From an uncultured Desulfovibrio sp. (GTDB lineage: Bacteria; Desulfobacterota; Desulfovibrionia; Desulfovibrionales; Desulfovibrionaceae): DNA of 56,804 nt. Positions 10,594 to 30,927 of the stretch are shown one piece after another. The DNA is taken from NCBI RefSeq assembly GCF_944324935.1, contig NZ_CALUYG010000015.1, positions 1 through 56,804 on the forward strand. Reading direction: 5' to 3'. The position numbers were made by a program, and so were the translations under genes. A model generated the notes under the pieces. The model made no database searches. It saw only the letters and a program-made list of their open reading frames with translations, and was not told the DNA's origin. Position 1 is the stretch's first letter; each line of letters opens with the position of its first letter.

Positions 10594-12630
10594 CTATCTG
10601 CCCAGAATGCCGCGCATCAGTCCGCCTGCGTCCCGGATCGTCTTGTCGATGGCGCTGCCTGCGCTCCTGGCCGTCTGGCCGGCGGTCTTGCCGGCCTGCG
10701 CGCCGCCATCCAGCAGCTTGCCCGGCAGGCCGGCGGCCATGCGCTCAAGAAAGCGCGGATCCACCGTATAGGAAAGATGATCGAACGGGCCGTCCACGAT
10801 GACCGGGATGGTCAGCCCCAGGGTGTGGACGTCAGCCGTGGCGTGCAGATGCCGGCGGGGCAGACTGGCGCTGGCCTGGCCGCTGGCGTTGAGGCCGTCG
10901 GCGCTGGCCACGATGGGCTTTGCCGTCACTTCGCCCTGCCGGATGACGAAGGGGACCTGCACCCGGTCGATTCTGTTGGGGATGGCGCCGCTCACGCCCG
11001 GGATGTCGCGGGGCAGGGCGGAAAGGGCTTGCTGGTGCAGGTCGCGCACATCCAGCGTCCCCTTGCCGTCCAGGGAGGCCAGCAGCTTTTCGCTGTTTTC
11101 GCCGGCGGCGTTCAGATCCGCCGTGAGCGAGGCCCTGCCTTCGGCGGGGCGTCCCTTGCCCAGCATGGCGGTAAGCCCTCCGATGTCCAGCGCATCAGCC
11201 GCGATGTCCAGCCCGTATCGCCGTTGCGGCAGATCGAAGGCGCCGTTGGCGTGGATGTCTCCGCCGCTCAGGAGCCGGCAGCGGAGATCCTGGAGCTGAT
11301 AGCGGCCTTTTTCGCCCCGCAGGCGCAGCGCGAGCCCACGGACGCCCTTTTCCCCGTACCGGAGGCTGTCGGCGCTCAGGCTGAGATCCAGCGAGGGCAG
11401 CGCCGGGAGCGGGGCGGGGCTGTCCGCCACCCGTTCCGTCGGGCGTTTCGTCGCGTGTCCGTCCGGGACGGCAGCCGTCCCCCCGGCGGCGGAGGCGGCC
11501 TTTTCGGGCAGATAGCGTTCAAGAGCGACATCGCCGAGATGCAGTGTGCCGCGTATGTCCGGCACGGGCCGCAGCGCGATCGCCAGCGAGCCTTCCAGAC
11601 GCGTCTTGTCCAGCGAGGCCTTGAGCTGGCGCAGGGTCAGCCGGTCGGGCGCACATTCGAGGCCTGTGGAAAGTTCGAGTCTGTCCTCCCCCTGCTGCGG
11701 CAGACGTATGCCCCAGAGGGCGGCCAGGGCGCGCGGCGCGGTCGTGAGCGACAGGGTCCCGGCAAAATGCAGGGCGTTCAGGTCGGCTTCGCCGGAGAGT
11801 TCCGCATGGCTGGCGGCCCAGGACAGGACCATGTCCTGGAGCCGGAGCTTCCGGGTGGCGAAGTCCAGGGCGGCCTCTCCCCGCAGGGCCAGCGGCCCGA
11901 GGCCTGCCGGCACGGGGCCGGTTTGCGGGGCCAGGCCAAGTTGCAGATCCCGTACGGTGAGGGTGGGGGCGCAATAGCGCACCGAGGCCTTGAAGGCAAA
12001 GCTGCCGGAGAGCTCTTCTCCCCTCTGCGTGAGCGTGTAGGAAAAGCCGGTGTCCGCCAGCATGTCCGCGTGGCGACGCACGTTTTGCAGGTCCAGATAC
12101 AGATCGGCGAGGGTGAGCCGGTCGCCGGCGGCATCCGTCAGGCTGATGCAGGCCCTTTCCACCCGCACCTTGCCCAGTTCCAGCGGCAGGACGTCCGACG
12201 GGACCCCGGCGACAGCGTCTGCCGGCGGCCGGGCGTCCGGCGCTTCGCCGGCCGCTGCCGGAGGCGTCCCGGTGGCGGGCGCGTGCAGGGCGATCGACAG
12301 CGCGGGCTCGGTCAGCACGATCTCTTCCACCACGATGCGCCCGGAGAACAGGGGAGACAGGGCCACGCGGGCATGCCCGCCGGCGGCGCTGACGGCAAGA
12401 CTCTTGTCGGGCTGCTCCCGCTGCCAGGCCAGCCTGCCGAAGTCAACGCCCAGCGGGAAAAGCGAGAGGCGCGGCGGATCGGTGAAGGTCACCGGCGCGC
12501 CCGTGGCCGTATCGACGGCATCGGAGATGGTCGAGGCCACGAAGCCGGTATCGACCCGGGTCAGCACAAAGATGCCTGCCGCTGCCAGCAGCAGGAGGAC
12601 GAGGACGAGACCGAGCAGAAGGCGTTTCAT
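10594..12630 (-). CDS. AsmA family protein
   Basis: A 678-aa protein with one N-terminal membrane anchor (MKRLLLGLVLVLLLLAAAGIFVL) and a long periplasmic beta-rich region. The AsmA-like start is VDFGRLAWQ, and a C-terminal block with VRDLHQQALSALPRDIPGVSG and later LTIPVIVDGPFDHLSYTVDPRFLERM closes the family fold. AsmA-like proteins belong to the bridge-like proteins linked to phospholipid movement to the outer membrane; that role is inferred from family. The ATG at 12630 follows AGGGAG. The central part contains an Ala/Pro/Asp-rich insertion (about residues 110-130). It ends 126 bases before motA but has no functional link to it. Confidence 0.85.
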   Translation of the reverse strand: MKRLLLGLVLVLLLLAAAGIFVLTRVDTGFVASTISDAVDTATGAPVTFTDPPRLSLFPLGVDFGRLAWQREQPDKSLAVSAAGGHARVALSPLFSGRIVVEEIVLTEPALSIALHAPATGTPPAAAGEAPDARPPADAVAGVPSDVLPLELGKVRVERACISLTDAAGDRLTLADLYLDLQNVRRHADMLADTGFSYTLTQRGEELSGSFAFKASVRYCAPTLTVRDLQLGLAPQTGPVPAGLGPLALRGEAALDFATRKLRLQDMVLSWAASHAELSGEADLNALHFAGTLSLTTAPRALAALWGIRLPQQGEDRLELSTGLECAPDRLTLRQLKASLDKTRLEGSLAIALRPVPDIRGTLHLGDVALERYLPEKAASAAGGTAAVPDGHATKRPTERVADSPAPLPALPSLDLSLSADSLRYGEKGVRGLALRLRGEKGRYQLQDLRCRLLSGGDIHANGAFDLPQRRYGLDIAADALDIGGLTAMLGKGRPAEGRASLTADLNAAGENSEKLLASLDGKGTLDVRDLHQQALSALPRDIPGVSGAIPNRIDRVQVPFVIRQGEVTAKPIVASADGLNASGQASASLPRRHLHATADVHTLGLTIPVIVDGPFDHLSYTVDPRFLERMAAGLPGKLLDGGAQAGKTAGQTARSAGSAIDKTIRDAGGLMRGILGR

Positions 12631-27458: not shown

Positions 27459-28880
27459 TCAAAGCTTTTCCGGCGAAGGAGCCGCGCTTGCGCCGGCGGC
27501 GCGATCAGGCCCCGGAGCCGCGTCGTCGTCGATGCGTTGCAGGAAGCCCGCCGCGCCGAGCCGTTGCCGCAGCACCGCCACATCCCGGCGGATGCGCTCC
27601 GGGGAGACCTGCGGAAAGGCCTCGGCCAGCAGGCCGGCCAGTTCCGCGTCGCCGCCCGGCTCTTCCCAGAGCTGCCAGAGGATGCAGCCCATGCCGTTGA
27701 GCCGGAAGACGCGGCCGTCCCGTCCGGCGACGTCCTCGTCGCGCGCCAGGAAGCCTTCGTCCCCGGTCTGACGGAAGGTGACGCCGGGGCGCTGCCGCCA
27801 GACGCCCGTGGGCGTGTCCGGGGATCGTCGTCCGGCGCGGCCACGGTGGCGGAAGAGGGGCGGACGCCTTTCGCCGATCCGCCGGGGGGAGAGGGGGGCC
27901 GGGCCGGGCGTCGGCGTGTCGGGAGCCGGCAGCGCCGCTCCCGGGGAGGCGGCCAGCCAGTCATCCAGCAGGCCGGCGGCCTCGTCCAGCGTGCGGTAGC
28001 GCAGCAGCCGGCAGGGAGCGCGTTGCAGCAGGTCGCAGGCCGTGCGCAGGGCAAGGCCCGCCCGGCCGTCCCGGAGCAGAAAGCGCAGCAGCACGTCCCG
28101 CATGTCGTCCTGTCGGGACTGCGGCAAAAGCCCGCAGGCGGCCGGCTTTTCCTGTCTGTCCAGGATGACGACGGCATCCGGCGGCAGAAGGGTCCCCCAG
28201 GGCAGCATGGGCAGCCGTGCGGGGTCGCAGCAGAGGTACTGCTCATCCCGGCAGGCCACCAGCGGCGAGTCCGGTGCCAGCAGAGGGGCCAGACGGCCGC
28301 AGGCAGGCAGCGGCAGCCGCAGGCGGGGGGCAAAGCCATAGGAGAAAAGCTCCCCCGCAGGGCTCAGCGCCAGCATATCGTCCCCAAGTCCCTGCCAGCC
28401 TCCCAGCAGCAGGCGGGCCATGAGGGCGCTCTTGCCCGCCCTGTGCGTGCCGCAGAGCAGGACCGTCCGTCCGTCGCGCACGGCGGCCGCGGCATGGATG
28501 CCCATCAGGCCGATCGTTTGCGCTTCATAGGCGGCGACAAGCTCGATGGCGAGCGTGCTGACCAGACAGGCGAGCGAGGGTTCGTAGCTGTAGCCGGGCC
28601 GCAGGCGGGCGCAGGCGTCCTGCGGGCGGAACGGCGTGAAATCCGTGGCTTCAGGGCTTGCGCCGTGCAGCCGGAAGTCGCCGTCCGGCAGCGGTTCCAC
28701 CAGGAAGAGGGGGGGCGCGGCGTCCGTCGCGGCAGCGTCCCGGCAGGCATGCGGCCAGCAGCCCAGGACGCGGCGAAGCGCGGACAGGAGCGCGCCCGTC
28801 CCCTCCGCCGCACCGGGCAGCAGGCGTACCGGTCCCGGTATGCCCTGGAAATGGATCTCCGTGCGGGGGGCCGCCGGCAT
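27459..28880 (-). CDS. HprK-like kinase / PqqD-like peptide-binding fusion
   Basis: A 473-aa two-domain protein. Residues about 100-310 resemble HprK-related kinases: GIHAAAAV at 128-135, Walker A GTHRAGKS at 144-151, and a GDD motif at 166-168 like the paired Asp of HprK. A Pro/Arg-rich linker follows (about 313-362). Residues about 366-450 resemble PqqD-type domains, which bind leader peptides in RiPP pathways (GVTFRQTGDEGFL, VFRLNGMGCILWQLWEE, VAVLRQRLGAAGFL). Known HprK-related kinase plus PqqD systems carry these as separate genes. It is 18 bases after one of two Tat-signal repetitive peptide genes. A peptide-modifying kinase is inferred; substrate and reaction are unknown. Confidence 0.7.
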   Translation of the reverse strand: MPAAPRTEIHFQGIPGPVRLLPGAAEGTGALLSALRRVLGCWPHACRDAAATDAAPPLFLVEPLPDGDFRLHGASPEATDFTPFRPQDACARLRPGYSYEPSLACLVSTLAIELVAAYEAQTIGLMGIHAAAAVRDGRTVLLCGTHRAGKSALMARLLLGGWQGLGDDMLALSPAGELFSYGFAPRLRLPLPACGRLAPLLAPDSPLVACRDEQYLCCDPARLPMLPWGTLLPPDAVVILDRQEKPAACGLLPQSRQDDMRDVLLRFLLRDGRAGLALRTACDLLQRAPCRLLRYRTLDEAAGLLDDWLAASPGAALPAPDTPTPGPAPLSPRRIGERRPPLFRHRGRAGRRSPDTPTGVWRQRPGVTFRQTGDEGFLARDEDVAGRDGRVFRLNGMGCILWQLWEEPGGDAELAGLLAEAFPQVSPERIRRDVAVLRQRLGAAGFLQRIDDDAAPGPDRAAGASAAPSPEKL

Positions 28881-28898
28881 GAAAGGCTTTCCCGAAGA

Positions 28899-29246
28899 TC
28901 AGTTGGAACGGAAACCGCCGCCGTGGGCCGGCGCGGCGCCGCCATGATAGCCGCCGCCAGCCGGGCCCTGATAGCCGCCCTGGGCCGGCGTGCCCCGGTA
29001 GCCTCCCTGCGGCGTGTAGCCGTGGTAGCTGTGCCGGGACCGGGGGCTGCGGGGGCTGCGGTAGGTACGGCGGGACCGGGGGCTGCGGTAGGTATACCGG
29101 GATGAGGCGCGGGCCTCGTCCAGCCCCAGCAGCGTGGGGGCGGTATAGGCCATGCCGGCGGCCACGAGGCCCAGCAGGAAGCGACGCCGGCTGTCGTTGG
29201 CGGCTTGCCGTGTTGTTGTGTTGTCGTGTCGTTGCTGTTCGGCCAT
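28899..29246 (-). CDS. Tat-signal peptide with Tyr/Arg/Ser/Pro repeats
   Basis: A 115-aa protein. The leader has a twin-arginine signal: RRRFLLGL at residues 20-27, a hydrophobic stretch to about 42, and a possible cleavage site after ARA (45-47). The mature part is low-complexity: first YRSPRS-type units rich in Arg, Ser, Tyr and Pro (48-75), then GGY-type units (80-115). No cysteines and no known domain. An AGGGAG site precedes the ATG. It is followed closely by the HprK-like/PqqD-like gene and preceded by a paralogue. The leader core is almost identical to that of the upstream gene, so it may be a modified and exported peptide. Function unknown. Confidence 0.7.
   Translation of the reverse strand: MAEQQRHDNTTTRQAANDSRRRFLLGLVAAGMAYTAPTLLGLDEARASSRYTYRSPRSRRTYRSPRSPRSRHSYHGYTPQGGYRGTPAQGGYQGPAGGGYHGGAAPAHGGGFRSN
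29030..29100 (-). repeat. Short imperfect tandem repeats inside the peptide gene
   Basis: The unit CGGGACCGGGGGCTG followed by CGGTAGGTA occurs twice with a partial extra copy. It encodes the repeated TYRSPRS-type residues. Confidence 0.7.
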
Positions 29247-29360
29247 GAGCAGACTCCCTGTCGTCAGCGGGACGGCGCACGGCGGGGTGCGCCTTCCGCC
29301 GGTATGTGTTGATGAGGGTATGGTGGTATCGCCTGCGGCGTCAGAAAAGCGTTAACCCTG

Positions 29361-29395
29361 AAAAAAGGGGGCGGCAGGTGATGCCTGCATCCCCC
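29361..29395 (-). terminator. Terminator or attenuator between the two peptide genes
   Basis: On the minus strand GGGGG, GCAGG, loop, CCTGC and CCCCC form an interrupted stem followed by TTTTTT. It would limit read-through from the first peptide gene into the second peptide and kinase genes. Confidence 0.65.
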
Positions 29396-29408
29396 TGTTC
29401 AGCCTCGG

Positions 29409-29879
29409 TCAGGTGTCGCGGCGCGGTCCGTCAGGCCGCCTGCGGTCGGGACCAGGTCTGACATCGCGGCGGGACGGGCCGGGCCTGCCGTCACGGCGGG
29501 ACGGGCCGCGCCGGAACGATCTGCGGTCATCCGGTCTGTCGGGCCTGCGGTCAGGGCCGGGCCTGCGGTCTCTGCGGGACGGGCCGCGCTGGAACGATCT
29601 GCGGTCATCCGGTCTGTCGGGCCTGCGGTCTCTGCGGGACGGACGGGGCCGGCGATTGTCGTGGTCCGGCCGGCGCGGCTTGCCCGAGCGTCGGCTGGGC
29701 CGGGTCCGCCGTCTGTTGGAGCGGCGTCGCGGCTCCGCCTCGGCCTCGTCCAGGCCCAGCAGGGTGGGCATGGAATAGGCCAGACCCGCGGCCACAAGGC
29801 CCAGCAGGAAGCGACGCCGGCCACATGTCCTCTGTTCAGATCCATTGACAGTGTTCTGCTCTCGTTCATGCTCGTTCAT
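29409..29879 (-). CDS. Tat-signal peptide with Arg/Asp/Pro repeats
   Basis: A 156-aa protein, paralogue of the next gene in its leader: RRRFLLGLVAAG at residues 21-32, a PTLLGLDEA block and a possible cleavage site after AEA (46-48). The mature part is extremely Arg-rich with Asp, Pro, Ser and Gly, containing two 26-residue repeats based on RPDRPDDRRSF-RGPSRRD. No hydrophobic core is present after the leader, so the tail should be unfolded and highly charged. GGAGGG precedes the ATG. A second open frame of similar length overlaps it but lacks the conserved leader. It begins 49 bases after nrnA. Function unknown. Confidence 0.7.
   Translation of the reverse strand: MNEHEREQNTVNGSEQRTCGRRRFLLGLVAAGLAYSMPTLLGLDEAEAEPRRRSNRRRTRPSRRSGKPRRPDHDNRRPRPSRRDRRPDRPDDRRSFQRGPSRRDRRPGPDRRPDRPDDRRSFRRGPSRRDGRPGPSRRDVRPGPDRRRPDGPRRDT
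29501..29656 (-). repeat. Two 78-base tandem repeats in the Arg-rich peptide gene
   Basis: The segment starting ACGGGCCGCG at 29501 recurs at 29579, a 78-base period (26 codons). The shared inner part GAACGATCTGCGGTC is identical in both copies. Expansion or contraction would keep the frame. Confidence 0.85.
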
Positions 29880-29928: not shown

Positions 29929-30927
29929 TCAAAGAACGGCGGAGACGGCCTTGATGAGCGCTTCGGCGGCTTGTTCGGCCTCCATGCGCAAGGTCCCCCC
30001 TGCCGCGTTCCGGTGTCCGCCACCGCCCAGCGCGGCGGCGGCAGCACGCACGTCCGTTGCGCCGAAGGAGCGCAGGCTGAACTTGTGGATGCCCGGCGCG
30101 TCCTCGCGCAGCAGGGCGGCGGCCCGCACGCCGGCGAGGCGGCGCATCTGTTCCACAAAGCCTTCAAGATCTTCCTTCGTTGCGCTACAGCTCTGTAGAT
30201 CATTCAACCGAACGGCGCAAAAGGCAAGCGTTCCGCCGGCAAAAAGTTGGATGCGTTCCATGAGGCGGGCCCAGAGGCGCATGCGGCCCATGCTCCAGCC
30301 GTTATCCAGATGCTGGCGCAGCAGGGCGATGTCGCAGCCTCTGTCCACAAGGTGGGCGGCCAGGTGCAGTACCGCCGCGCTGGTGTTGCCGTGGGCAAAG
30401 CCGCCTGTGTCCGTCACAAGGCCAAGGGCGATGGCCTGACCGAGGGGCCCTTCCAGCGGCAGGCCGGCGCTGATGGCCACATAGGCCACGAGCTGGGCCG
30501 TGGCGGCCGCCTGCGGCTCAATCCAGTTGTCCCGGCTGCCCATGCCTTCGCTGCCCAGATGATGGTCGATATTGACGGAATCCAGCGGGGGGAGGGCCTT
30601 TTCCAGCTCGTCGCCCAGACGGTGCGGCTCGCCGCAGTCCAGCAGCACGGCCGCGGCGGGGCGGAAGGGCAGGCGCTGCACGCTGTCATGCAGACTGCCG
30701 GGCAGCGGCAGGAAGGAGAGGTACGGCGGCACGCCGCTTTTGCTGTACAGGACGAACTCCTTGCCGAGCGCGCGCAGCAGGCAGCCCGTTGCCGCCACGG
30801 AGCCGAGGGCGTCGCCATCGGGATTGACATGCCCGGACACGATGACGCGGTCCATCTGCCGCAGGGCGGCGGCCATACGGGCGGCGGGGGCGCGCCAGGC
30901 CTCGGGGATGAGCTCAGTCGGCCACAT
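29929..30927 (-). CDS. nrnA: DHH-family phosphoesterase NrnA (nano-RNase / pAp phosphatase)
   Basis: A 332-aa cytoplasmic phosphoesterase that degrades very short RNAs and often also pAp. The DHH domain has VSGHVNPDGDALGS near residues 30-43, LLDCGEP near 95-101 and the name-giving Asp-His-His at 121-123. The DHHA1 domain ends with GGGGHRNAAGG at 301-311. The ATG overlaps the end of the upstream DUF503 gene by 14 bases. DUF503-nrnA-truB-rpsO-pnp is the expected order in Desulfovibrio and relatives; here a three-gene cassette separates nrnA from truB. Confidence 0.92.
   Translation of the reverse strand: MWPTELIPEAWRAPAARMAAALRQMDRVIVSGHVNPDGDALGSVAATGCLLRALGKEFVLYSKSGVPPYLSFLPLPGSLHDSVQRLPFRPAAAVLLDCGEPHRLGDELEKALPPLDSVNIDHHLGSEGMGSRDNWIEPQAAATAQLVAYVAISAGLPLEGPLGQAIALGLVTDTGGFAHGNTSAAVLHLAAHLVDRGCDIALLRQHLDNGWSMGRMRLWARLMERIQLFAGGTLAFCAVRLNDLQSCSATKEDLEGFVEQMRRLAGVRAAALLREDAPGIHKFSLRSFGATDVRAAAAALGGGGHRNAAGGTLRMEAEQAAEALIKAVSAVL

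Follow-up and report, generated by a model that had tools for sequence, protein, structure and literature searches.

A kinase–recognition element fusion and its adjoining twin-arginine-type precursors: a candidate leader-directed modification cassette in Desulfovibrionaceae

In this study, we examined a 56,804-nucleotide contig from an uncultured Desulfovibrio sp. (NZ_CALUYG010000015.1, assembly GCF_944324935.1; the window below), whose source genome comprises 2.7 Mb at 99.8% completeness. Its minus strand carries a cassette that reads precursor 1, then precursor 2 and then, after a spacing of 18 bases, a 473-residue protein in which a kinase resembling HPr kinase/phosphorylase (HprK/P) and phosphoenolpyruvate carboxykinase (PEPCK) is fused to a PqqD-like recognition element (RRE), a type of domain that recognizes leader peptides in pathways for ribosomally synthesized and post-translationally modified peptides (RiPPs). 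The cassette lies between a gene for a DHH/DHHA1 protein on one side and truB, rpsO and pnp on the other. A first-pass annotation of the sequence had proposed that the fusion binds a leader common to the two small proteins and modifies serines or tyrosines in their tails before twin-arginine (Tat) export; as a whole, that interpretation is partly supported by our analysis. The cassette has the following features.

27459..28880, minus: HprK/PEPCK-like kinase–RRE fusion, 473 residues (open reading frame, PqqD Pfam match, AF2 model, fold matches)
27927..28511, minus: kinase domain, residues 124-318, HprK/P-like within a PEPCK-like fold (residues 2-315)
28428..28451, minus: Walker A GTHRAGKS, residues 144-151 (G149, K150 and S151 in 33/33 fusions)
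28377..28382, minus: paired Asp D167-D168 (33/33 fusions)
27810..27938, minus: disordered Pro/Arg-rich linker, residues 315-357 (pLDDT < 50)
27528..27806, minus: RRE (PqqD-like) domain, residues 359-451, with D433 at the position of LppB D70
28899..29246, minus: precursor 2, 115 residues (open reading frame list, leader profile)
29106..29246, minus: precursor 2 leader, residues 1-47, with SRRRFLL twin-arginine motif, YTAPTL and ARA site
29130..29147, minus: precursor 2 YxxPxL motif, residues 34-39
29409..29879, minus: precursor 1, 156 residues, with Arg/Asp/Pro/Ser tail (open reading frame list, leader profile)
29736..29879, minus: precursor 1 leader, residues 1-48
29760..29777, minus: precursor 1 YxxPxL motif (YSMPTL), residues 35-40

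Results

The arrangement described at first pass, an HprK-like/PqqD-like fusion following two genes whose products have leaders in common and unfolded tails rich in Arg, is confirmed by the open reading frames (ORFs), the AF2 model and fold matches. The PqqD Pfam family (PF05402) matches the C-terminus of the fusion with an E-value of 2.5e-8, above the gathering score. Fold matches of the AF2 model (pLDDT 80.2, pTM 0.78) assign an HprK/PEPCK-type kinase part and a PqqD-type RRE at the C-terminus, the fold that had been predicted for that domain. Because residues 2-315 (window 27936-28877, minus) align more widely with PEPCK than with HprK/P, we describe the upstream part of the fusion as PEPCK-like. 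Matches to PDB sequences required an alignment profile, and phmmer with the single fusion protein returned nothing there. The HprK_rel_A model (TIGR04352) aligns over 51 residues of the window fusion and is matched by 16/16 fusions at E<=0.1 (best 6.4e-9); Pfam Hpr_kinase_C has no match in the window fusion and matches 4/16 relatives (best 3.9e-5).

Residues H129, K150, S151, D167, D168, R186, R188 and R242 are conserved in 33/33 fusions (one per genome). Among them, H129, K150 and D167-D168 correspond to the His-Lys-Asp-Asp catalytic motif of lasso-peptide kinases (PMC9266682). Given this conservation, the kinase domain looks catalytically competent. In the RRE, D433 aligns with LppB D70, which fixes the leader Tyr in the system of linear polyphosphorylated peptides (LPPs; PMC13381572), and of the 32 readable fusions 28 have Asp and 4 have Glu at this position; N395 aligns with LppB N33 and is Asn in 23 of the 32.

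The leaders share a layout of RR-x-[FLV]-L, an Ala/Gly/Leu-rich stretch, Y-x-x-P-x-L and E-A-x-A. Motifs of the YxxPxL type, [Y/W]xxPx[L/V/I/F/A], are bound by the RREs of lasso peptides and LPPs (PMC13381572), and YxxP is the leader motif of lasso-peptide RREs (PMC12710340). The Tyr and Pro of the motif are present in 30/30 aligned leaders; after dereplication, Tyr -14 and Pro -11 are found in 22/22 and Leu -9 in 20/22. That Tyr -14 and Pro -11 never vary is in part an effect of selection, because the leaders were gathered with a pattern requiring Y/W and P/A (Ala -1 was likewise part of it, Leu -9 lay outside it) and the precursors used for the tail counts with a YxxP pattern. A leader-only profile (A4; 30 leaders, 40 positions) offers a partial check of this selection: among 2,244 ORFs of 40 loci it gave 48 matches, 46 of them with YxxP, and the two without (G070 and G262) are unlinked, have His/Pro-rich tails and were treated as ordinary twin-arginine proteins. 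Small twin-arginine proteins of this kind, unlinked and with comparable leaders that lack YxxP, are encoded at L115:3144-3476 (minus) and L116:2697-3242 (plus) in two fusion-bearing genomes, the L116 protein having a His/Pro-rich tail.

Unusually, the RRE motif sits within a sequence that reads as a twin-arginine signal peptide with AxA at its end. Both window precursors combine the R-R-x-F-L motif, an h-region and AxA (SRRRFLL...ARA in precursor 2, GRRRFLL...AEA in precursor 1). With RR found in 40/41 precursors and TatC encoded in the source genome, twin-arginine export, as originally suggested, seems likely on sequence grounds; two points against it, concerning one precursor and a Pfam model, are weighed in the Discussion.

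The distribution of the leader follows that of the fusion. In a family of 288 genomes, taken as Desulfovibrionaceae because the four relatives with names are Desulfovibrio metagenome-assembled genomes, the fusion is present in 32 genomes and 5/44 genera (E<=1e-10). A sample of the order yielded 25/297 genomes with the fusion, all 25 from the same family. In a phylum sample, 10/297 genomes matched, three with full fusions (G000, G126 and G558, the last from another family) and the remaining seven with the kinase part alone or the RRE part alone. At E<=1e-7, the leader profile matches exactly the 32 fusion-bearing genomes of the family and 0/256 others, an absence that holds at the sensitivity of a search scoring at most 26 candidates per genome. 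Weak matches (1.8e-5 to 8.4e-4) occur in 6/256 fusion-free genomes, and the sole one of the six inspected, in G275, belongs to a large protein, whose signal lacks YxxP. All these counts carry limited weight because the genomes are related, 22 of the 32 fusion genomes being members of one genus.

Proximity of homologous fusions to such peptides, which the first-pass annotation had anticipated, was also borne out: a leader gene adjoins the fusion on the same strand in 32/33 genomes (the 32 family genomes and G558). The exception is G220, in which the precursor (L112:3281-3751, plus) lies on a separate contig, next to grpE; with the two genes apart in this genome, adjacency is evidently dispensable. 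G206 carries an additional precursor on another contig. Recognition of the shared leader by the RRE is well supported, though indirectly, by the co-occurrence, the YxxPxL motif and the conserved Asp/Glu of the RRE.

Modelling lends modest support to docking of the leader on the RRE. Precursor 2 and the fusion share a reading frame, and the intervening stop was read through as a modelling device, giving a single chain of 595 residues (alignment A6, in which row L014 misplaces 5 residues). In this model, the leader has pLDDT block means of 78-88 over residues 1-40, with a helix at 2-29 and a strand at 39-42 just past YTAP, and the precursor tail is disordered; lasso leaders extend the RRE sheet directly after the Pro (PMC13381572). 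Blocks of the RRE reach 93-95 over most of the domain with the leader and 88-91 in the model without it, a difference for which the two models are not a clean control, being built on different alignments. A fold search of the read-through model listed no RRE entry among its best 50 rows, which were filled by PEPCK and HprK entries.

The tail count covered 41 precursors from 33 genomes, filtered for YxxP, a tail of at least 25 residues and at least 70% of ten residue types. Arg is the commonest residue (28.9%), followed by Ser (14.2%), Pro (13.5%) and Gly (11.6%), a composition that is partly selected because the filter asks for the ten residue types; the shuffles below were run within tails. 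The median net charge is +16, and the tails contain at least nine Ser plus Thr. Pairs of [Ser/Thr]-Arg number 385/556 in the 41 tails against 158.4 +/- 9.3 in shuffles (maximum 189), and 224/308 in the 22 dereplicated precursors against 92.6 +/- 7.0 (maximum 114). The numbers of Ser and Thr per tail vary inversely (rho -0.61, P 0.003 in the dereplicated set), as if either residue could fill the same place in the tail. Tyr is absent from 10/41 tails; on this ground we rejected it as the main target, and that part of the original proposal is unsupported.

The fusion and a leader-bearing gene form the same pair on Alphaproteobacterial plasmids. A tblastn search with the fusion found 6/72,556 plasmid records (two Shinella and four Paracoccus), in which 71% of the query aligned at 30% identity. 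Three loci were inspected; their fusions score 1.7e-82, 3.6e-75 and 9.7e-74 with the A1 profile, and the catalytic residues are retained in both of the plasmid fusions that were aligned. The small gene directly upstream encodes a leader and a Ser/Arg/Gly tail. It is preceded by a gene for a subtilase (Pfam Peptidase_S8), whose N-terminus bears this leader, with twin-arginine, YxxPxL and Ala, and also a Ser/Arg/Pro-rich stretch:

L146:3016-4353: leader-bearing subtilase, Ser/Arg-rich stretch ahead of the protease domain
L147:2993-4261: leader-bearing subtilase, same layout
L148:2469-3734: leader-bearing subtilase, same layout

Searched against the 255 ORFs of these loci, the leader profile gave six matches (1.6e-8 to 3.2e-4), every one the small gene or the subtilase. 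Because the subtilase bears the same leader together with a Ser/Arg-rich segment, the sequences suggest that the signal acts as a transferable tag, or address. All three loci have a divergent sigma-factor gene farther upstream, and in two of them it is followed by a gene for a protein that we take to be an anti-sigma factor. The leader of one Paracoccus precursor (P0002, L147:4332-4694) matches the NCBIfam model 'formate dehydrogenase region TAT target' at 2.6e-6, below its cut-off.

A domain scan of the window from about 23.8 to 33.4 kb identified PNPase, S15, TruB, DHH (the DHH/DHHA1 protein gene at 29929-30927), DUF503, HTH-cupin and MFS proteins. Clustering of ORFs found no other neighbour recurring in more than 3/21 fusion loci, a weak negative because the filter, which keeps the longest ORF per overlap, lost the fusion itself in 5/21 loci. 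Searches of PHROGs and of phage records gave no match.

Two other loci deserve mention in their own right. G320, from another family of the phylum, has a further YxxP cassette, in which genes for small Cys/Gly-rich proteins whose leaders read YEPPxL or YEPPTV (L073:1297-1614, 2294-2617 and 10950-11183, all minus) lie close to those of two discrete PqqD-like proteins and of HprK-like proteins. In G542 (L072:4344-4508, plus), a 54-residue lasso-precursor-like peptide with YARPRLIKYGSVSKLT lies directly upstream of an HprK-like kinase.

Discussion

Our results probably reflect a leader-directed cassette in which the RRE holds the signal peptide of a small protein, the kinase phosphorylates Ser/Thr in its tail and the protein is then exported. 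Judging from motif, fold and co-occurrence, the C-terminal RRE would bind YxxPxL inside the twin-arginine-type signal peptide, and binding would deliver the tail, unfolded and rich in Arg, Ser and Thr, to the HprK/PEPCK-fold kinase, which a flexible linker tethers to the RRE within one chain. The kinase may then phosphorylate Ser/Thr, probably more than once per tail. The signal peptide would be masked for as long as it is bound, so that modification would precede export. After release, the precursor would leave by the twin-arginine pathway, or by Sec in the lineage without RR, with signal peptidase I predicted to cleave after AxA. Once outside the cell, the proteins might serve as a phosphorylated coat or tag. 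Phosphorylation of tail Ser/Thr by the fusion is our best inference, drawn by analogy from the fold, the catalytic residues and the LPP and lasso precedents.

Several observations weigh against this model. On the kinase side, HprK_rel_A gives the window fusion 34 bits, where the cut-off is 200. LppK targets one Ser rather than repeats, and did not phosphorylate Thr or Tyr substituted for it (PMC13381572); the tails in G207, G250, G254 and G256, with 8 Thr and 2-4 Ser, are a poor fit for a Ser-only kinase. The window precursors are themselves weak in [Ser/Thr]-Arg pairs (3/13 Ser/Thr in precursor 2, 6/11 in precursor 1). The number of Ser plus Thr correlates with net charge in all 41 tails (rho 0.42), but the correlation disappears once the set is dereplicated to 22 tails (rho 0.24, P 0.27), leaving charge neutralisation unsupported. 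As for export, the L016 precursor has a lysine-rich start in place of RR, and Pfam TAT_signal (cut-off 22.7) scores precursor 2 at 11.3 bits and does not match precursor 1; a search of the source genome with this model gave 5 matches, all below the cut-off and neither precursor among them. The cassette itself contains no dedicated transporter and no leader peptidase, and the rise in RRE confidence with the leader comes from the imperfectly controlled comparison noted above.

Eukaryotic SR proteins and protamines, which are phosphorylated by SRPK-type kinases, are also Arg/Ser-rich disordered substrates. More tentatively, then, the cassette could be a bacterial counterpart of such phosphorylation gated to export, in which the RRE hides the signal, the [Ser/Thr]-Arg repeats become multiply phosphorylated and only modified proteins leave; we regard this stricter version as doubtful. 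The fold of SRPK-type kinases is unrelated to that of the fusion kinase, and the likeness is one of analogy only. Our confidence in both the leader-directed and the export-gated versions is reduced by the 3/13 pairs of precursor 2 and by the loss of the charge correlation on dereplication.

An unlikely but substantive alternative is that the fusion does recognize the leader and act on the tail, but that the outcome is not phosphorylation of Ser/Thr at multiple sites. The product could instead be a single Ser bearing a polyphosphate chain, phosphorylated Arg or an intermediate with phosphate that an unlinked enzyme completes. LPP and lasso kinases put up to four phosphates on one Ser (PMC13381572, PMC9266682), Arg at 28.9% is the commonest tail residue, and the Thr-rich tails and the few pairs of precursor 2 can be counted here too. 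However, the family-wide [Ser/Thr]-Arg enrichment and the Ser/Thr anticorrelation point to hydroxyl residues, and no further ORF cluster recurs in more than 3/21 fusion loci, within the rough ORF filter used.

Chaperones that bind twin-arginine signals are known, namely the redox enzyme maturation proteins, and an RRE motif placed within a signal peptide would suit a proofreading chaperone whose P-loop domain times release of the signal, with no covalent change to the tail. We consider this improbable, since the kinase catalytic residues are kept in 33/33 fusions and unfolded tails require no folding control. It is scarcely credible that the small proteins are basic and bind nucleic acids or surfaces, with the kinase a functionally unlinked neighbour: the tails do resemble basic disordered proteins in their charge (median +16), but leader and fusion co-occur in 32/32 genomes versus 0/256, also when unlinked (G220) and again in Alphaproteobacteria.

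Among known systems, the leader-directed cassette most resembles the LPP family, described in 2026 (LppA/K/B/S/D/N; PMC13381572), and may work like it without being a member. Both have an HprK-like kinase, recognized here by fold and catalytic residues, a PqqD-type RRE, a YxxP leader motif and precursors with a conserved N-terminal and a variable C-terminal part. Defining features of LPPs are nevertheless missing, and we therefore do not class the cassette as one. The LPP RRE is the discrete protein LppB, whereas that of the cassette is fused to the kinase; LPP clusters contain an archaeal-type SpI, a nucleotidyltransferase and an MsbA-like transporter, none of which is found among the window neighbours; and the cassette leaders have YxxPxL without the HQxIxFET part of the LPP leader, YxxPxVLxHQxIxFETxxS. 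In addition, the cassette leader is itself a twin-arginine-type signal and the tails are Arg-rich. LPPs are described as restricted to Bacillota (PMC13381572), whereas the cassette occurs in other phyla.

Phosphorylated lasso peptides (paeninodin PadeK, ThcoK, SyanK and PsmK; PMC9266682) share the HprK-like kinase with His-Lys-Asp-Asp, a B1-type RRE and a [Y/W]xxPxL leader. Their B2-type leader peptidase (PF13471) has 0 matches in the source genome, on which ground a lasso cluster was rejected, and their precursors have a conserved C-terminal Ser, whereas 0/41 cassette tails end in Ser. No macrolactam cyclase is present among the scanned window neighbours, the source genome not having been searched for it, and no macrolactam is expected in the product. 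HprK/P and PEPCK have the kinase fold, P-loop and paired Asp in common with the fusion, which differs from HprK/P in its RRE, its PEPCK-like upstream part and its expected substrate. DUF2282 precursors and their DUF2063-type RREs (PMC12710340), elsewhere called bufferins, also combine an export signal on a RiPP precursor with an RRE partner, but there a Sec signal precedes a variable leader that has no specific motif, whereas the cassette places its RRE motif inside a twin-arginine-type signal. We found no description of a kinase–RRE fusion with such precursors in the open-access literature covered, mostly titles and the beginnings of abstracts, with the RRE-fusion supplements of PMC12710340 outside that scope.

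In summary, if the leader-directed model holds, the cassette would be a two-gene modification system that physically links a recognition domain, a kinase and an export signal. Whether RREs help HprK-like kinases is left open in PMC9266682, and the fusion makes this directly testable. Leader-guided phosphorylation would then extend beyond the peptides of Bacillota to exported proteins, a protease included, and the RRE could double as an export gate.

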